From Vulgatibacter incomptus (lineage in GTDB: Bacteria > Myxococcota > Myxococcia > Myxococcales > Vulgatibacteraceae): DNA of 64,000 nt. The stretch covers positions 2,477,501-2,541,500 of the forward strand of contig NZ_CP012332.1 in the NCBI RefSeq assembly GCF_001263175.1. The letters run 5' to 3'. The first letter of the stretch is position 1. Every line of letters begins with the position of its first letter. The position numbers were made by a program, and so were the translations under genes. The notes under the pieces are model-generated. The model saw nothing but the letters and a program-made list of their open reading frames with translations. It searched no databases and was not told the origin of the DNA. This document shows, piece after piece, positions 5,437-55,800 of this stretch.

Positions 5437-5991
5437 TCAAACCGCCGGACGGATCTCGCGGCACGGATTGCCGGCGGCGAAGACGCCTTCCGGAACATCG
5501 CGGGTGACGACGCTCCCTGCCCCGATCACCGACCGGGAGCCGATTGTCACCCCGGGCGAGACGATCGCACCGCCGCCGATCCAGACGTCGTCCCCGATCG
5601 CCACCGGCTTGCCGAATTCCCGGCTCCGGCGCAGCTCCGCGTCCATCGGATGGGTCGCGGCGTAGATCTGCACAGCCGGTCCGAAGAGGCAGTGGGCTCC
5701 GATCTCGACCAGGCAGACGTCGAGGATGATGCAGTTGAAATTGAAGAAGCAGCCCTCGCCGAGGCGGGTGTTCACGCCGTAGTCACAGAAGAAGGGCGGC
5801 TGCATCCAGACGGTCTCGCCGCCCGCCGCGAAGAGCGAGCCGAGGAGCCGGCGCCGCTCCATCCGATCGCTCTCGCGGGTGGCGTTCAGTTTCCGGCAGA
5901 TCTCACGGGCGCGGTCCCGCGCCTCGACCAGCTCGGGATCGAGCGGATCGTAGAGTTCGCCGGCGAGCATCTTCTCCCGTTCGCTCTGCAT
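5437..5991 (-). CDS. maa: maltose/galactoside-type O-acetyltransferase
   Basis: This 184-residue enzyme transfers an acetyl group from acetyl-CoA to a sugar hydroxyl in the cytoplasm. The N-terminal 'EKMLAGELYDPLDPEL' is the usual Mac domain. It is followed by left-handed beta-helix hexapeptide repeats ('IGDDVWIGGGAIVSPGVTIGSRSVIGAGSVVTRDVP') and the closing 'AGNPCREIRP'. The catalytic His is in 'AATHPMDAELRR'. The length matches Maa/LacA/NodL proteins. The true acceptor cannot be told from sequence. The gene is monocistronic. The 170 bp between its stop and the IS probably held the displaced promoter of the lipoprotein gene. Confidence 0.88.
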   Translation of the reverse strand: MQSEREKMLAGELYDPLDPELVEARDRAREICRKLNATRESDRMERRRLLGSLFAAGGETVWMQPPFFCDYGVNTRLGEGCFFNFNCIILDVCLVEIGAHCLFGPAVQIYAATHPMDAELRRSREFGKPVAIGDDVWIGGGAIVSPGVTIGSRSVIGAGSVVTRDVPEGVFAAGNPCREIRPAV

Positions 5992-6094
5992 CGGATCCTC
6001 CGTTTGCAGTGGCGGGACCTCGCTCGGGAGATGCGCATGCTCGTGCGCGAAATCTCGCCCGTCGGCGGACCGCGTCCGTGCGGGCTCGAAGAGC

Positions 6095-6615
6095 TCATCG
6101 ACGCACGAGCGCGCGCTCCCGCGACAGGCTCAAGGCCGTCGCGAGCCCGAACACCGTGTGTGCAAGGTAGCCCTTGAGGTTGGCGCCGAGCGGATAGCGC
6201 CACGCCCAGTCGCTCAAGCGGAGCGCTCGGCCAGCGAGGTTGTCGCCCACGAGCCAGACGACCGTGCCGAAGGCGAGCCCTCGGAGGAGCCCCGGCCGCC
6301 CCTCGCGACCAGCGCGTAGAGGCCGCCCCAGGCGGCGCCGGTGGCGTAGTGCATGAGGTCGCCCGCCAGCTTGCGGCGCTCGTCCGGGAGCCGCCGTCGG
6401 GTGACCCCCTCGAACAAGCGGCGCGCCGCGGTCTCCGTGGCAACCTCGTCGGCTGCCCTCCGATCGCGGGGAAACCTCGGCGTCCGGCGGGTCGTGCCCG
6501 AGGGGATGTGGGGGAGGACGCGGTCCTGTACCGCGGTCATCACCAGGGTGCCGGCGAGCCCCGCCACGGCCCCTTCCGACGCCCGCTGCCAAGCATGCTT
6601 CCGATGGTTTCGCAT
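6095..6615 (-). pseudogene. DUF1440/YagU-like membrane protein, broken by a one-base frameshift
   Basis: Two overlapping frames together give one protein of about 173 residues. The first part, from an ATG at 6615, starts MRNHRKHAWQRASEGAVAGL and runs to 'MHYATGAAWGGLYALVARGG'. The second part continues 'GLLRGLAFGTVVWLVGDN' to 'LAHTVFGLATALSLSRERAL', ending at 6095. The join is at the CCCC run 6290-6293 (GGGG in the coding strand). Adding one G restores 'RGGRGLLRGLAFGT'. The pattern of hydrophobic helices with a late 'YPL..HxVFG' motif resembles DUF1440 inner-membrane proteins of unknown function. It is either a real pseudogene or a sequencing error. The same kind of lesion occurs in pilW. Confidence 0.65.
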
Positions 6616-6665
6616 GGGGGAAGTTAGGTTCGCGGAGCGACGCCGTGCCGGCCCGATGCGCCGGA

Positions 6666-7247
6666 TCAGGGCTCGCAGGCCGAGGGATCGAAGCCCAGCG
6701 ACGTGCCGGGGAGGATCGCGTCGGGGATCGGCCTGCCCGCGTAGCCCTCACCAGGGCGCGGTGCCTCCTCCACGCCGTCTCCCGCCCGCTGCGCGACGAC
6801 CGCCTCGAGCTGGACGAGGCGAAGATCGTTCGCGAGCGCCTCGAGCTCGGGGGCGAGGCGCCACTGGGCCAGATCGGCGAAGCCCCTCTCCACCGAGCTC
6901 CGGAGGGCGCCGATCGCCTCGTCGCGCCGGCCCTCTCTTGCGTACGCGCGCCCGAGGTGGAAGCGCCCGAGGGCGTCGTCCGGCCGCAGGGTCGCGAAGC
7001 GCTCGAAGCGGGCGACCGCCTCGTCTCCCCGGCCCAGGGCGAGCGCGGCGATCCCGCCGTTGTAGAGGGCGACGAGGTTGTCCGGATCGAGGGCCAGGGC
7101 CCGGCCGAAGGCCTGGTGGGCCGCTCCTAGCTCACCCGCCCGCGCGGCGGCGAGCGCCTCGCGGGCCTCGGTCTCGGCGCGCGCCCCGCCGCGGCCGCAG
7201 CCCGCCGCCGCAACGAGGAAGACCAGCAGAAACGAAGCCAACCGCAC
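6666..7247 (-). CDS. TPR-repeat lipoprotein of the pilus operon
   Basis: This 193-residue protein starts at a GTG one base after the pilY1 stop, so it is almost certainly translated with pilY1. The signal peptide MRLASFLLVFLVAAAGC ends in a lipobox. Residues about 25-125 hold at least two tetratricopeptide units ('AHQAFGRALALDPDNLVALYN' style, 'AVARFERFATLRPDDALGR', 'AIGALRSSVERGF'). TPR lipoproteins of pilus systems, such as PilF/PilW-type pilotins, help secretin assembly, but this one is too divergent for me to equate with them. It is the last gene of the operon. Confidence 0.8.
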   Translation of the reverse strand: MRLASFLLVFLVAAAGCGRGGARAETEAREALAAARAGELGAAHQAFGRALALDPDNLVALYNGGIAALALGRGDEAVARFERFATLRPDDALGRFHLGRAYAREGRRDEAIGALRSSVERGFADLAQWRLAPELEALANDLRLVQLEAVVAQRAGDGVEEAPRPGEGYAGRPIPDAILPGTSLGFDPSACEP

Positions 7248-49264: not shown

Positions 49265-49807
49265 TCAGCCCGGATCCCCGAAGCGGAGCTGAAGGCCCAA
49301 TCCCACGTCGAAACCGACCTGGAGGCCGTCGCCGTAGGCCGCAGAGCCGCCGGTGGCGACGAAGAGGCCCGCGTTCTCGGAGAGCTCGTACTGTACGCCG
49401 ACGCCCAGGCGCGCGCCGGCGCCCCAGACCGGGAGGAGACGGGCGAAGGCGCCGATATCGAAGAAGGTCTTCCACTCGTCGTAACCGGCAAAGACACGGT
49501 ACGCGAGGTAGGGCGCCACGAGCCTCGTCCCCTCGTCCGGGCCCGTGCCGATCCGCAGGCCCAGGATGCCCTCCCCTCCCTCGTCGGAAGCGGGGAGCCC
49601 GAAGGCCAGGTCGGCGAAGGCGCCAGGCTCGGAGGAGGTGCGATCCGAGGACTTGCGCCCCGAGAGCACGAGGTGCTCGAAGCCGGACGTCAACGTCAGC
49701 GAGGGCTGATCGCGGTGGTCGAGGATGGGGAGGTACGAGACCGCCTGGCCGCTGGCGGGTAGCGCGAACCCCACCGTGATCAAGGCGATGGCGAGCCCGA
49801 GCCTCAC
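49265..49807 (-). CDS. small outer-membrane beta-barrel-like protein
   Basis: This 180-residue protein starts from a GTG at 49807 that overlaps the larE stop (GTGA), so it is translationally coupled. The signal peptide MRLGLAIALITVGFALPASGQA is clear. The mature chain alternates in a beta-barrel fashion ('LTLTSGFEHLVLSG', 'LVAPYLAYRVFAGYDEW', 'ARLGVGVQYELSENAGLFVATGG') and ends 'VGFDVGLGLQLRFG'. A lipid A deacylase- or OmpA-like 8-strand barrel is possible. No function is known to me. Confidence 0.7.
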   Translation of the reverse strand: MRLGLAIALITVGFALPASGQAVSYLPILDHRDQPSLTLTSGFEHLVLSGRKSSDRTSSEPGAFADLAFGLPASDEGGEGILGLRIGTGPDEGTRLVAPYLAYRVFAGYDEWKTFFDIGAFARLLPVWGAGARLGVGVQYELSENAGLFVATGGSAAYGDGLQVGFDVGLGLQLRFGDPG

Positions 49808-50676
49808 GGGAGGACCGGGAGGGAAACGGGGATCGCCCGGCTCATGCCTTCGTGGAGGCTTCCGGTGCGGAACGGCGCCAGATCCAGCGCCACGAAGCGG
49901 AAGCCCGCGGCCTTGATCGAGCGGTCCATTGCCTCCCGGAGCGCCGCGTCGGCGAGGAGGCGGGGGAGCTCCTCCCCTCCCAGCTCGACCCGCGCGACCT
50001 CGCGGTGGTAGCGCACCCGGAAGATCCGGAAGCCCAGATCCTGCATCGCCTCTTCCGCACGGGCGACTTGGCCGAGGCGCTCCTCGGTGACCTCCGTGCC
50101 GTAGGGGATCCGCGACGCGAGGCAGGCGAGCTGCGGCTTGTCCCAGGTGGACAGGCCCAGGCGGTGGGACCAGGCGCGGATCTCGTCCTTGCCGAGGCCT
50201 GCCAGGAGCAACGGCGAGATTACGCGATGCTCGTCGCCGGCCACCCGGCCCGGGCGGTGGCCGCCGGCCTCGTCGGCGTTGAATCCGTCGAGGATCGCGT
50301 CGATCCCGCGCTCGTCGGCGACCTTTCGACACAGGTCGTAGAGCTCGCTCTTACAGAAGTAGCAGCGGTCGACCGGATTCTTGGCGTAGTTGGGGTCGTC
50401 GATCTCGGAGGAGGCGACGACCACGTGCTCCGCGCCAAGCTCGGCGGCGAAGCGCTCCGCCGCCGCCCGCTCGCGCGGCGCGACGGACGGCGAGATCGCG
50501 GTGAGGGCGATGGCCTTGGACCCCAGCTCCTCGAGCGCCACCTTGAGGACGAGCGCCGAGTCGACGCCCCCAGAGAAAGCGACGATGGCGCTCGGCTGCG
50601 CGCGGATGATCCCGCGCATCTTCTCGAGCTTGCCGGCGCTGGCTTCGCAGAGCGCAGAGACTTCGGACTCGTTCAT
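49804..50676 (-). CDS. larE: LarE-type ATP-dependent sacrificial sulfur transferase
   Basis: This 290-residue PP-loop enzyme adenylates its substrate and donates sulfur, in known cases to the nickel-pincer cofactor precursor of lactate racemase. The PP-loop is 'AFSGGVDSALV' (33-43). 'NPVDRCYFCKSELYDLC' contains Cys105 and Cys108. The sulfur-donor position corresponds to Cys185 in 'PQLACLASRIPYG'. No larA, larB or larC lies in the window, so the acceptor here is unknown. It is followed by the coupled barrel protein and lies near TusA and E1-like genes. Confidence 0.87.
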   Translation of the reverse strand: MNESEVSALCEASAGKLEKMRGIIRAQPSAIVAFSGGVDSALVLKVALEELGSKAIALTAISPSVAPRERAAAERFAAELGAEHVVVASSEIDDPNYAKNPVDRCYFCKSELYDLCRKVADERGIDAILDGFNADEAGGHRPGRVAGDEHRVISPLLLAGLGKDEIRAWSHRLGLSTWDKPQLACLASRIPYGTEVTEERLGQVARAEEAMQDLGFRIFRVRYHREVARVELGGEELPRLLADAALREAMDRSIKAAGFRFVALDLAPFRTGSLHEGMSRAIPVSLPVLP

Positions 50677-50709: not shown

Positions 50710-51966
50710 CTACCGTCGCGACGGCTTCGCGACCTTGGCTGCCGCGGACTTCGGCGCGGTCTTCCGGCCGGTCTCGGGCGGAGTCTTCGCTGCCGCCTTT
50801 TCCGCGGCAGGCTTCGCCGCCTTGGCCGGAGCCGACTTCGCGGCGGCGGGCTTCGACGCCTTGGCAGGAGCCGCCTTCGCCGCGGCCGGCTTCGAGGCCT
50901 TGGCGGGCGCCGCCTTCGCCTCGGCAGGCTTCGGCGCCTTGGCGGGAGCCGTCTTCGCCTCGGCCGGCTTCGACGCCTTGGCGGAAGCCGCCTTCGCGTC
51001 GGCGGGCTTCGAGGCCTTGGCAGGAGCCGCCTTCGCTTCGGCGGGCTTCGACGCCTTGGCGGGAGGGGTCTTCGCCACTGCCGGCTTCGCCGCCTTGGCA
51101 GGAGCAGCCTTCGCCGCGGCAGGCTTCTCCACCTTGGCCGAACCCTCCTTCGCGGCTGCAGGCTTCGACGCCTTCGCGGCCGCTGCGGGCTTCGCCGATT
51201 CAGCCTGCTTCGACGCCTTCGCAGGCGCCGCCCTGGCCTCCGCGGGCTTGGACGCCTTGGCCGGACGAGCCTTCGCGCCAGCGGCCTGCGACGCGTCCGC
51301 CGGCTCGACCGGGAGTCGCATCTGGATGGCCGCGACGGGCTTGGCCTTGGCCTTCTTCGCCTTCGGCGGCTCGGGGACGGCCTGGATCTCGACAGGCGGA
51401 GCGCTGCCGTTCACGAGCACGTCGCGATCCTGCTGGGTGATGTAGCCGAGGTTCGCGAGGCGATCGAAGACCTGCGCCGCAACCGCCTCCACCCCGCCGA
51501 CTCCCATGTCGACCTGGATCTCCGGGCTCACCGGCGGCTCGTAGGGGGACTGGACCCCGACCACGTCCTGCAGCTCGCCGGCGAGGGCGCGCCGGTAGAT
51601 CCCGCGGGTGTCGCGCTCCAGCAGCGTCTCGAAGGGGCTGTCGACGAAGAGCTCGACGAAGCGCCCGATGGCGCGGCGCTGCTCGTCCCGGACCTCGCGA
51701 TGGGGGCTGACCGACGCCACCACCGGGATCGCGCCGCTGCGCGTCAGCAGGCGCGCCACCCAGCCGAGGAGCCGAACGTTGCGGTCGCGGATCTCGTTGC
51801 TGGCGTCAGGGCCTTCGGGCGCGAGATCCTCGAGCTCGCTCATGTCGAGGAGCTCGACCCGCCGTCCGATCAGTGGAAACCGCCGAGCCACGTAGCTTGC
51901 GAGCGTGCTCTTCCCCGCGCCGCTCATACCCGTCAACCAGAGGGTGAATCCCTGCTGCGTCTCCAT
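50710..51966 (-). CDS. adenylylsulfate-kinase-like protein with histone-H1-like tail
   Basis: This 418-residue protein has an N-terminal APS-kinase (CysC) fold of about 180 residues. Its P-loop is 'TGMSGAGKSTLA' (12-23), and 'DRNVRLLGWVARLLTRSGAIPVVASVSPHREVRDEQR' and 'EPPVSPEIQVDMG' follow the family. APS kinase phosphorylates adenylylsulfate to PAPS. From about 200 to 418 the chain is a basic tail of Ala, Lys and Pro built on a 13-residue repeat AKASKPAEAKAAP. The tail resembles bacterial histone H1-like proteins and may bind nucleic acid or polyphosphate. No sulfate-reduction genes are adjacent. Confidence 0.8.
   Translation of the reverse strand: METQQGFTLWLTGMSGAGKSTLASYVARRFPLIGRRVELLDMSELEDLAPEGPDASNEIRDRNVRLLGWVARLLTRSGAIPVVASVSPHREVRDEQRRAIGRFVELFVDSPFETLLERDTRGIYRRALAGELQDVVGVQSPYEPPVSPEIQVDMGVGGVEAVAAQVFDRLANLGYITQQDRDVLVNGSAPPVEIQAVPEPPKAKKAKAKPVAAIQMRLPVEPADASQAAGAKARPAKASKPAEARAAPAKASKQAESAKPAAAAKASKPAAAKEGSAKVEKPAAAKAAPAKAAKPAVAKTPPAKASKPAEAKAAPAKASKPADAKAASAKASKPAEAKTAPAKAPKPAEAKAAPAKASKPAAAKAAPAKASKPAAAKSAPAKAAKPAAEKAAAKTPPETGRKTAPKSAAAKVAKPSRR
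50785..51261. repeat. 39-bp degenerate coding repeat array
   Basis: The tail of the APS-kinase-like gene is an array of about ten imperfect 39-bp units encoding AKASKPAEAKAAP. Such arrays can change length by slippage or recombination. Confidence 0.75.
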
Positions 51967-52159: not shown

Positions 52160-52810
52160 CTACGCCCCGGCGGTGATACACGCGCCGGATGCGACGGGCT
52201 CGTGGTTGCAGGCCGGGAGGCTGCTGGCGGCGCCGCCATCCCACGCCCACAATCCGGCGACGGGCGCTTCGATGCCGAGGATCGCGGCGAGCGCGCGGCT
52301 GGCTGCCAGGGAGCCGGCGAGGGACGCGGCCTCCGGCGACGCGGGCAGGCCGGGACGCAGCGGCGGGCAGGCCGAACACGGCAGCCGGGCGCCCGGCTCG
52401 AGCCAGCCGACCACAGCGGCCTCCCCCGCCGCGGCGGCAACGAGCACGGGTCCTTCGCCAAGCCAAAGCTCGGTCGAATCGTCCGTGATCCGCGCGCTGG
52501 AAGTCTCGATCGACGCCGCCACGTCCGGATTGAAAGCCGAGAGGGCCGAGGCGGCCGCCCGGTCCCGGGGCCGCCCGGAATCCTCCGCCCCGAGGAGCGG
52601 AAGGAGGCCGGTCGCCGGCACGGGACGGGGGTCGGAGAGGATCAGCCGCCCGACGCCGGCCAGGCCGAGGTAGGTCACCGCCCAGCAGCCGACCTCGCCG
52701 AGGCCGGAGACGTGGATCCGCGACGAGAGGATCTTCTCCTGGCCGACGCCCCCTACCTCCTGGAGGAGGATGTGGCGGGCGTAGCGCTCGATCTGCGGAT
52801 CGTCCAGCAC
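52160..52810 (-). CDS. degenerate E1-like (ThiF/MoeB-type) protein
   Basis: This 216-residue protein begins like MoeB/ThiF: 'IERYARHILLQEVGGVGQEKIL' then a Rossmann 'VSGLGEVGCWAVTYLGLAGVGRLILSD'. After that Asp, the conserved D-x-V-x-x-SNLxRQ stretch is missing and replaced by 'PRPVPATGLLPLLG'. The remainder is Ala-rich and keeps only one 'PCSACPPLRPG' Cys pair. Adenylation activity is therefore unlikely. It starts one base after the stop of the TusA-like gene. It may act as a pseudo-enzyme partner of the complete E1-like protein two genes upstream. Confidence 0.72.
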   Translation of the reverse strand: MLDDPQIERYARHILLQEVGGVGQEKILSSRIHVSGLGEVGCWAVTYLGLAGVGRLILSDPRPVPATGLLPLLGAEDSGRPRDRAAASALSAFNPDVAASIETSSARITDDSTELWLGEGPVLVAAAAGEAAVVGWLEPGARLPCSACPPLRPGLPASPEAASLAGSLAASRALAAILGIEAPVAGLWAWDGGAASSLPACNHEPVASGACITAGA

Positions 52811-52811
52811 G

Positions 52812-53051
52812 CTATCGCTTCTTTCTGAGGACGAGGCGGTGCTCGCCGTCGGCGTGGCCGGGCCCGCTGGAGACGAGCTCGTGCCCTTCGCCGGCGGCGC
52901 TCCGCGGGATGTTTCGCAGCGGCTCGTCGCCCCGCAGCAGCACCTCGAGGAGCGCGCCCGAGTCGACCCGCTCGAGGGCGAGCTTCACGCGCACCCAGGT
53001 CATCGGGCAGACGTGTGCGCGGATGTCCACCGATGTCAGCTGTTCGCTCAT
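52812..53051 (-). CDS. TusA/SirA-family sulfur carrier
   Basis: This 79-residue protein fits the family size. The motif 'DIRAHVCPMTWVRVKLALERV' contains the CPxxxxR signature with Cys15 as the persulfide site. 'LLEVLLRGDEPLRNIPRSAAGEGH' follows. TusA proteins relay sulfur to tRNA thiolation, molybdopterin or other targets. Its start overlaps the stop of the upstream E1-like gene (ATGA), so the three genes are coupled. Confidence 0.87.
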   Translation of the reverse strand: MSEQLTSVDIRAHVCPMTWVRVKLALERVDSGALLEVLLRGDEPLRNIPRSAAGEGHELVSSGPGHADGEHRLVLRKKR

Positions 53052-53767
53052 GCGGCGCAGGCCTCCGCGCCGTACCGGGCGGCGTCCAGGGCACGGATCG
53101 TGGGCTCGTCGCCGCAGACCGCGCAGGAGGGGTCACGGCCCAGCTTCACGCCGCGGTCACGGCCGGTGAGGGCGTCGTGAACCAGGAGGAGGTCTCCTAC
53201 AGGGGCGCCCGACAGGATCGCGCCCGCCGCCGTCGCCATCCGCGCGCCCACGATTCCGCATAGCGCGCCGAGGACGCCGGCCTCGGCGCAGGAGGGGACC
53301 ACCCCCTCCGCAGGAGGCGCCTCGAACAGACAGCGGTAACATGAGGTAACCTTGGGCATGACAGCGAGCACTTGACCGGTGAAGCGGAGGATCCCGCCAT
53401 GGACCAGGGGCGTTCCCACGAGGACGCAGGCGTCGTTCACGAGAAAGCGCGTGGCGAAGTTGTCGCTGCCGTCAAGGACCACGTCGGCATCGCCCGCGAG
53501 GGCCTCTGCGTTCTCGACGGTGAGGCGCTCGCGGATCCCCTCCACGCGGGCGCCGGGTACGAGGGCGGCGAGCCGCTCGAGTGCGACGTCGACCTTGGGC
53601 CGGCCCACGTCTCGGGTGCGGAAGAGGAGCTGACGCTGCAGGTTGCTCAGCGAGACGACGTCGTCGTCGAACACGCGGAGCTCGACGCCCGAGCGGGCCA
53701 ACAGCGGCAAGGTCGCGCTCCCCAGCCCTCCCGCTCCAATCACCAGCGCCCGCTTCGTCCTGCCCAT
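53048..53767 (-). CDS. ThiF/MoeB-type E1-like adenylyltransferase
   Basis: This 239-residue protein has an intact nucleotide-binding core: 'ALVIGAGGLGSATLPLLARSG', 'VFDDDVVSLSNLQRQLLFRTRDVGRPKVD' and 'VLDGSDNFATRFLVNDACV'. Zinc Cys pairs appear as 'SCYRC' and 'CAVC', and 'VPSCAEAGVLGALCGIVG' is the crossover-loop region. It adenylates the C-terminus of a ubiquitin-like sulfur carrier. The N-terminal RYxRH helix is missing here and is found instead in the degenerate protein at 52160. No ThiS/MoaD gene is adjacent. It is the first gene of the trio. Confidence 0.86.
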   Translation of the reverse strand: MGRTKRALVIGAGGLGSATLPLLARSGVELRVFDDDVVSLSNLQRQLLFRTRDVGRPKVDVALERLAALVPGARVEGIRERLTVENAEALAGDADVVLDGSDNFATRFLVNDACVLVGTPLVHGGILRFTGQVLAVMPKVTSCYRCLFEAPPAEGVVPSCAEAGVLGALCGIVGARMATAAGAILSGAPVGDLLLVHDALTGRDRGVKLGRDPSCAVCGDEPTIRALDAARYGAEACAA

Positions 53768-53823
53768 CGGCGCGCATCCTACCGGTTCGCGGCGCCTTGA
53801 GAAAGCCGGGCGACGAGCGCGCG

Positions 53824-55119
53824 ATGGCGCATCCCGCTCGGGCCCTCACGAGCCCCCGTGCGCCGGTGTCGATCGATGCCGGCGATCGCGCGTCCACCGG
53901 GGTGCTTCCCGCGGACCTCCTCTCGAGCTGGCGGGAGCGACGCCTGGCGGCCCACTCGCGCACCCTCTCCTTCCTCCGGCTCGCCGCCATCATTGTCGGC
54001 GTCTGTGTCGCTGCCGTGCCCGGGTGGGCGGCGGCGCTCGGCCTCGACGGCGTCTCCTTCCGCCTCGTCCTCGGGGCGATGGTCGCCTACACGCTCGCGG
54101 CGGCTGCCGCGATTCCCCGAGGCGGCAGCGAACCCGGCCGGCTCTCCACCGCAGTCACCTACGCTGCCCTCTGCCTCGACGCCGCCGTCGCCGCCTACGT
54201 GATCGCGGCCACGGGCGGCCTCCGCTCGCCGCTGCTCGCGGTCCAGGTGGGGCTCGCCGCGAGCTTCGCCCTCCTCTTCCCGAGGCCGCTCCTGGCCGCG
54301 CCGGCGTTCCTCGTGCTTCCGGCCCTCGCGCGGATCGACCGGGCGCTGGGCACCACGGGCGGCTCGCTCTTCGAGATCCTCACCGTGGTGGGCTACGGCG
54401 CCCTCGACCTCGCGATCGTCCTCCTGATCGTGGAGGCGAACCGCCGCGAGGAGGAGCGCCTCGAGCAGCTCGTACGCCTCGAGCGCGCCTTGGGCGAGCT
54501 CGCCGTGGCCAACGAGCGCGCCCGCCTCTCCCGGGAGATCCACGACGGCCTCGGCGCGTCGCTCTCGAGCCTCTCGCTCCAGACCCAGTACCTGCTGCAG
54601 CTCTGTCCCGACGGCGCCCTCCGCGCCGAGATCGAGGAGCTCCGACTGGCGTCCGGCGACGCCCTCGAGGAGCTGCGCCACGCCCTCCACGTGATGCGCG
54701 GCGACTTCGATCTGGCCCGCGCGTCCCGCGAGCACTGCGCCGCCATCGAGCGCCGTTGCCGCCTGCCGATCCGCTTCGAGCAGGAGGGCGAGGCTCCCGC
54801 GGCCGGAGAGGCGGGCGAGCTACACCTCACCCTCTTCCGCCTGCTGCAGGAGGCGGTCTCGAACGCGGTGAAGCACGCGGGGCCGACCCGGATCGAGGTC
54901 CGACTCGCCTTCGCGCCGGGGTCGAGCTCGCTGACCGTGCGCGACGACGGCGCCGGCTTCGATCCCGACGCGCCCAAGGCGGGACACTACGGGCTCCGCG
55001 GCATGAGGGAGCGGGCAAAGCGCTGCGGTGGCGAGGTGTGGATCGAGAGCAGTCTGGGCGCGGGTGCGTGCGTCCGAGTCGAATTTCCCAATCGAGAGAG
55101 GCCGCCGGCGGCGGCGTGA
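53824..55119 (+). CDS. NarL-type membrane sensor histidine kinase
   Basis: This 431-residue kinase has about six membrane helices (residues 50-205) with almost no periplasmic loops. A coiled linker leads to a HisKA_3 domain with His240 in 'ARLSREIHDGLGASLSSLSLQTQYL'. The ATPase domain has the N-box 'LLQEAVSNAVKHAGPTRI' and G-box 'VRDDGAGFDPDAPKAGHYGLRGMRERAKRCGG'. It sits 15 bp before its probable response regulator. The input is unknown, perhaps a membrane or intracellular signal. Confidence 0.9.
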   Translation: MAHPARALTSPRAPVSIDAGDRASTGVLPADLLSSWRERRLAAHSRTLSFLRLAAIIVGVCVAAVPGWAAALGLDGVSFRLVLGAMVAYTLAAAAAIPRGGSEPGRLSTAVTYAALCLDAAVAAYVIAATGGLRSPLLAVQVGLAASFALLFPRPLLAAPAFLVLPALARIDRALGTTGGSLFEILTVVGYGALDLAIVLLIVEANRREEERLEQLVRLERALGELAVANERARLSREIHDGLGASLSSLSLQTQYLLQLCPDGALRAEIEELRLASGDALEELRHALHVMRGDFDLARASREHCAAIERRCRLPIRFEQEGEAPAAGEAGELHLTLFRLLQEAVSNAVKHAGPTRIEVRLAFAPGSSSLTVRDDGAGFDPDAPKAGHYGLRGMRERAKRCGGEVWIESSLGAGACVRVEFPNRERPPAAA

Positions 55120-55134
55120 GAGGAGACGAAAGCG

Positions 55135-55800
55135 ATGAGCGATCCCATCCGCGTGCTGGTCGTCGAGGACCAGCCCAAGATCCTGGAGCCGCTGCTCAAG
55201 CTCCTCGGCGGATTTCCCACCGTGTCGATCGTCGGCGCGGCCCGGAGCGGCGAGGAGGCACTCGAGGAGGCCGCACGGCTGCGCCCCCAGGTGGTCCTCT
55301 GCGACCTCGGCCTGCCCGGGATCAGCGGGATCGACGTGACCCGCGTGCTCAAATCGCGCCCGGAGCCCACGGAGGTCCTCGTGTTCACGGTCTTCGAGGA
55401 GGAGGAGAAGGTCCTCGCCGCGATCCAGGCCGGCGCGTCGGGCTACCTCCTCAAAGGCGCACCGGCTGCCAAGGTCGTCGAGGCAATCGAGGAGGTGCAC
55501 GCCGGGGGCACGGTGATCCAGCCTTCCCTGGCCCGCAAGCTCCTCGGGCACTTCCGCGCGCCGGTCGATGAGCCCGCGCCGCCGCCGGCGAACGAAGAGG
55601 GCCCGAACCTCTCGCCGCGGGAGACCGAGATCCTCCAGCTCATCGCGAAGGGGCTGACCAACCCCGAGGTCGCCGAGATCCTCTCGCTCTCCCGTTCCAC
55701 CATCCGTACGCACCTCGAGCACATCTACATGAAGCTCGAGGTCACGAACCGGGTCGAGGCCGTGACCGAAGGCCTCCGCAAGCGCCTGATCGAAGCATGA
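55135..55800 (+). CDS. NarL/LuxR-type response regulator
   Basis: This 221-residue protein has a receiver domain with phospho-acceptor Asp57 in 'PQVVLCDLGLPGISGIDV' and a C-terminal LuxR HTH 'LSPRETEILQLIAKGLTNPEVAEILSLSRSTIRTHLEHIYMKLEVTNRVEA' (about 157-207). The GGAG RBS lies before the ATG. It forms an operon with the kinase just upstream. Targets are not evident. Confidence 0.93.
   Translation: MSDPIRVLVVEDQPKILEPLLKLLGGFPTVSIVGAARSGEEALEEAARLRPQVVLCDLGLPGISGIDVTRVLKSRPEPTEVLVFTVFEEEEKVLAAIQAGASGYLLKGAPAAKVVEAIEEVHAGGTVIQPSLARKLLGHFRAPVDEPAPPPANEEGPNLSPRETEILQLIAKGLTNPEVAEILSLSRSTIRTHLEHIYMKLEVTNRVEAVTEGLRKRLIEA

Follow-up and report, generated by a model that had tools for sequence, protein, structure and literature searches.

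In the window analyzed here (the whole stretch of 64,000 nt from Vulgatibacter incomptus), an E1-like enzyme of the MoeB/ThiF type appears to be divided between two neighboring genes, of which one encodes a chain with a complete adenylation site and the other a catalytically degenerate homolog, hereafter pseudo-E1, carrying the N-terminal arginine-finger helix that is missing from the first. We propose that both chains assemble into a heterodimeric E1 in which the finger acts in trans, that TusA donates sulfur for a ubiquitin-like carrier, and that the gene pair arose by tandem duplication. For this reading as a whole we estimate a probability of about 70%, the heterodimer itself being on firmer ground than either the sulfur donor or the carrier. 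The proposal bears on how E1 enzymes evolved, as the canonical eukaryotic E1s have a dead half whereas the bacterial MoeB/ThiF enzymes are symmetric. A lineage of soil bacteria would have taken the same step in simple sulfur-carrier enzymes, with pseudo-subunits ranging from full length to 92 aa, and such small proteins would allow a direct test of the need for a dead half and of the disputed arginine finger. Annotation pipelines would name the pseudo-E1 a ThiF-family adenylyltransferase, almost certainly wrongly.

Organization of the gene trio and its neighbors

The active E1 gene (53048..53767, minus strand) encodes 239 aa that match Pfam ThiF (E 4.9e-64) from profile position 20 onward, and its nucleotide-binding core (53630..53737, minus strand) extends from GAGGLG (residues 11-16) to DDDVVSLSNLQRQ (residues 34-46). 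It overlaps by 4 nt (ATGA) with a gene for a TusA-type sulfur-relay protein (52812..53051, minus strand; 79 aa, CPMT motif, Pfam TusA E 5e-16), whose stop codon TAG is separated by 1 nt from the GTG start of the pseudo-E1 gene (52160..52810, minus strand). For the 216-aa pseudo-E1, the Pfam ThiF match (E 5e-18) is confined to profile positions 1-106. A sequence-only reading of this DNA had described a TusA gene placed between two E1-like genes that overlap or abut, with a LarE-type sulfur transferase and an APS-kinase-like gene nearby, and these junctions and domain matches bear it out: the LarE gene (49804..50676, minus strand) scores 294 bits with TIGR00268 against a cut-off of 150, and the gene at 50710..51966 (minus strand) encodes an APS-kinase domain. 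Both also adjoin the E1/pseudo-E1 pair in relatives.

Several features of these neighbors were observed in passing. The APS-kinase domain protein has a long, repetitive Lys/Ala/Pro-rich tail reminiscent of nucleic-acid-binding or histone-H1-like tails, and a similar one occurs in a relative with a reduced genome (L098, 6732-7760). In the window LarE, a CYFC pair is joined by a third Cys in LACLAS, a three-Cys pattern as in cluster-type LarE, and elsewhere in the genome (3987113-3988228) there is a LarC-family gene. Divergent from the E1 gene are a NarX/NarL-like histidine kinase and a response regulator (53581-55800, plus strand); in L063 and L072, too, the pair is flanked by histidine kinase or response regulator genes.

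Complementary residue loss in the two chains

The window E1 retains the Gly loop, DxD, SNLQRQ, the Lys, the Asp, the catalytic Cys160 and four zinc Cys, while no RYxRH helix is encoded in the 26 in-frame codons upstream or in the other two frames; sequence and alignment thus agree with the earlier description of a protein that keeps the ATP-binding and SNLxRQ residues and lacks the N-terminal helix. In the pseudo-E1, the predicted arginine-finger helix (52769..52801, minus strand; residues 4-14, DPQIERYARHI) places Arg12 at the position of MoeB Arg14 and ThiF Arg11. Here the sequence-only reading, which had the helix and a Rossmann core kept and the catalytic stretch lost, was right about the RYARH helix on a ThiF fold but understated the loss, which exceeds one catalytic stretch: across the pseudo-E1 family the Gly loop, Asp64, Asn70, Arg73, Lys86, Asp130 and the catalytic Cys187 are either missing or not conserved.

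The partition was quantified in a joint alignment of 34 E1s and 33 pseudo-E1s, numbered by an E. coli MoeB sequence that is consistent with the PDB alignments to 1jw9. Gly38/40/41/43, Asp64, Asn70, Leu71, Arg73, Gln74, Lys86 and Asp130 were kept in all E1s (34/34), as were the zinc Cys (with Cys244 not read in one E1), and Cys187 in 33/34, while the N-terminal helix was found in none of the 34. In the pseudo-E1s, Arg73 was found in 0 and Lys86 in 1 of the 33, Asp130 and Cys187 were lost, and Arg11, Arg14 and Gln26 were invariant (33/33), the invariance of Arg14 being partly by construction because the helix motif had served in part to find these pseudo-E1s. The pseudo-E1s of L064, L098 and L203, located without that motif, keep YxRQ too. 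MoeB and ThiF are homodimers with both subunits working (PMC12355090), and ThiF Arg11 and MoeB Arg14 form an arginine finger entering the active site of the neighboring subunit (PMC13139853). Since this finger acts across subunits, the two window genes would each supply what the other lacks of a single composite active site.

Linkage and distribution of the split pair

Through comparing the genome (4,350,553 bp, one contig) with 60 relatives, a helix-less E1 was found in 33 relative loci, and each of these E1s is followed immediately by a pseudo-E1 within its operon-like run; conservation of the trio in other Myxococcota, a check proposed with the sequence-only reading, came out positive in these relatives. 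Together with the window, L098, L099 and L203, they make up 37 split-clade E1s, and a pseudo-E1 adjoins the E1 in 37/37, including L098, a reduced genome of 2.7 Mb, so that coincidence does not explain the pairing. In L203 (Polyangiaceae), ORFs read by eye gave the order cysteine synthase, E1, carrier, a 92-aa pseudo-E1 (PYSRQ), cysteine synthase and a JAB-like protein. The pseudo-E1s vary from 92 to 233 aa, and forms of 92-123 aa, found in several genomes, still hold the helix.

With a pseudo-E1 profile, E values <=1e-37 were obtained among 195 genomes of the phylum only within the same order, intact E1s scoring near 1e-25. A search for short pseudo-E1s in the same 195 genomes gave weak matches, and the ones inspected outside the order (L226, L233, L252) were rejected because they fall on ThiF-type proteins that are intact and carry the helix in cis. 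Among the best 80 E1 loci of the genome collection, 79 were parsed and 77/79 have the helix in cis (L206 being counted by its LYSRQ helix); the exceptions listed are the split L203 and the helix-less L155. As L203 is the one further split locus among those best 80, a widespread split E1 in bacteria is unsupported. L155 (Planctomycetota MAG, 5986-6708), whose helix-less E1 does not belong to the split clade, counts against our reading in that no pseudo-E1 was seen there, though its contig ends 868 bp downstream. A second E1/pseudo-E1 pair, L074 (G022:C1:3603054-3604420), has no TusA, and catalytic residues have been lost from its E1 copy as well (GGPGG loop, DLTRQ, DGGGD).

Predicted folds and a proposed heterodimeric adenylation site

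AlphaFold2 predicted the E1 monomer (pLDDT 91.7) with no helix ahead of the first strand and the pseudo-E1 monomer (pLDDT 86.4) as a ThiF fold with helices 4-14 and 20-29 ahead of it. ThiF and MoeB were the top Foldseek matches for both chains (TM ~0.8 for the E1, ~0.7 for the pseudo-E1), and SAE1 was among the matches of the pseudo-E1. The E1 and pseudo-E1 distance matrices are correlated (r = 0.85 over 33 loci), to an extent that shared ancestry alone could yield.

We infer that E1 and pseudo-E1 form an obligate heterodimer in place of the MoeB/ThiF homodimer. The 239-aa chain would bind ATP-Mg as well as the GG at the C-terminus of a ubiquitin-like sulfur carrier, generating the carrier acyl-adenylate, while the pseudo-E1 would pack as the second protomer and insert its helix Arg12 into the E1 site as a finger in trans, so that each dimer would have one active site. 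The likeness to eukaryotic E1s, with an active and an inactive half, had been put forward earlier from the letters of this DNA; the 37/37 linkage, the complementary residue loss, the single clade and the purifying selection (below) are comparative evidence that supports it well.

Alternatively, the pseudo-E1 may serve as a scaffold without catalysis of its own, on which TusA, the carrier or the downstream enzyme would dock, the E1 working as a homodimer or monomer without a finger. The arginine finger is dispensable in MoeB and ThiF and is absent in E. coli TcdA (PMC13139853), and therefore a helix-less E1 could work alone and the role of the pseudo-E1 could differ; carrier::pseudo-E1 fusions in L083 and L087 would suit docking, and the zinc cysteines are retained in many pseudo-E1s. 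Nevertheless, the finger helix is the best conserved part of the pseudo-E1 and outlasts its reduction to 92-123 aa, and exactly the part that the E1 lost is kept by its partner, which makes a scaffold unlikely.

A regulatory role, in which the pseudo-E1 would inhibit the E1 by competing with productive dimerization, was also weighed. Pseudoenzymes are often regulators of their active relatives, and this one is translationally coupled with the E1 operon. An inhibitor, however, would not be needed in every case, yet the linkage is 37/37, and as the window E1 and pseudo-E1 are the only ThiF-family proteins over the cut-off in the genome, it would target the sole E1; we regard this role as very unlikely.

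TusA, the carrier and the sulfur operon

In the proposed heterodimer pathway, TusA, coupled in translation with both chains, would deliver persulfide sulfur to the adenylate to give the carrier thiocarboxylate, substituting for the rhodanese domain of MoeZ/MOCS3. TusA is thus probably the sulfur donor. The sequence-only reading had instead paired the E1s with TusA in place of a ubiquitin-like carrier. In favor of TusA being itself the carrier activated by the E1 pair, its gene lies between the two, the window operon has no carrier gene, and E1 is fused to TusA in L062. The C-terminus of the window TusA is LRKKR, however, with no GG, in relatives TusA shares an operon with a GG-ended ThiS/MoaD carrier, or the carrier occurs alone, and a rhodanese-like role for SirA is already reported as a prediction by Iyer et al. 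2006 (PMC1779556). Such a replacement is therefore highly improbable. Nor is the earlier claim supported that the pairing is unusual, for TusA/SirA stands beside a rhodanese-less E1 in the sulfur operons of row 4e in the same 2006 paper (PMC1779556).

TusA was matched in 22/34 loci (window included), several families being without it, and is missing between the two genes in L066-L068, L070 and others, a point against the proposed pathway. The operons of relatives hold varying sets around the pair, drawn from a ThiS/MoaD carrier ending in AGG, cysteine synthase, JAB peptidase, APS kinase and LarE. The E1 is fused to the carrier in L068, and in L083 and L087 the carrier AGG is directly joined to the start of the pseudo-E1; with the carrier fused ahead, a free carrier C-terminus would need cleavage. 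In most relatives the carrier would be the operon-encoded CysO-like protein, often accompanied by cysteine synthase and JAB peptidase. In the genome of the window, one ThiS was found, in a thiS-thiG-thiE operon without ThiF, and no MoaE and no JAB scored over the cut-off. With this gene content and just two ThiF proteins over the cut-off, ThiS is most likely the client here, judged by the absence of other matches, and would serve thiazole synthesis.

Origin of the pair and selection on both genes

In a tree built without the helix columns, a single branch (SH-aLRT 92) separates the 37 split E1s from 107 intact E1s. Twelve full-length pseudo-E1s group with the split E1s (support 99), tentatively given the long branches. 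Over ten pairs, dN/dS was 0.12-0.37 for the pseudo-E1 and 0.12-0.35 for the E1, and both genes are under purifying selection. The origin would most likely be tandem duplication of one E1 gene followed by reciprocal loss. That the pseudo-E1 is a decaying pseudogene from such a duplication, as its lost catalytic residues and its lengths of 92 to 233 aa might suggest, is contradicted by this selection, by the Arg11, Arg14 and Gln26 held in 33/33 and by the persistence of the pair in a reduced 2.7-Mb genome, and can practically be dismissed. It is somewhat more likely than not that Myxococcota, independently of the eukaryotic heterodimers, gained a two-chain sulfur-carrier E1 when a tandem duplication was followed by reciprocal loss, with some pseudo-subunits cut down to little more than the finger helix (92-123 aa).

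Comparison with known systems

The E1-like superfamily was reportedly surveyed by Burroughs and others in 2009. In our literature search, which covered papers other than subscription ones, no report of a heterodimeric bacterial MoeB/ThiF and no precedent for the two-chain form in the sulfur-carrier branch was found. The window E1 resembles MoeB and ThiF (PDB 1jw9, 1zud) in fold, ATP site with Gly loop, Arg73, Lys86 and Asp130, zinc site and catalytic Cys, with 37-40% identity in structural alignment; the known enzymes, however, are homodimers with the arginine-finger helix in the same chain, while here it sits on a separate dead chain. Among operons, types 4c and 4e of Iyer et al. 2006 share with the present ones a carrier, JAB and an E1 without rhodanese, together with SirA/TusA (4e), cysteine synthase (4c) and APS kinase (4e), but the passages on them describe no second, inactive E1, and no myxobacterium is listed in 4c or 4e (PMC1779556). 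This content recurs in part or whole in relatives, the window operon being without carrier and JAB.

An inactive and an active adenylation unit combined in a bacterium are already shown by BilD (PMC11354881), albeit in a single chain that also has a Cys domain and works in protein conjugation; the HMM resemblance of the window to it is weak. A Bil or E1-E2 antiphage system was rejected, as there were only partial ThiF-domain matches to defense models and the neighbors are sulfur genes. In yeast Tcd1-Tcd2, the inactive Tcd1, a MoeB-family chain, supplies the arginine finger to the active Tcd2, yet these are tRNA ct6A dehydratases located at the outer mitochondrial membrane and not sulfur-carrier enzymes (PMC13139853).

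With SAE1-UBA2 and NAE1-UBA3 the pair shares active and inactive adenylation chains of common origin, the dead homologous chain being conserved alongside the active one. It differs in its sulfur-carrier context and in that no separate catalytic-Cys or ubiquitin-fold domain is seen in the 239-aa E1, which has one ThiF domain; moreover, its origin inside Myxococcota is apparently separate and its pseudo-subunit can be <100 aa. Best supported is a division of labor as in SAE1-UBA2, yet in a divergent MoeB/ThiF branch that lies outside the eukaryotic group.
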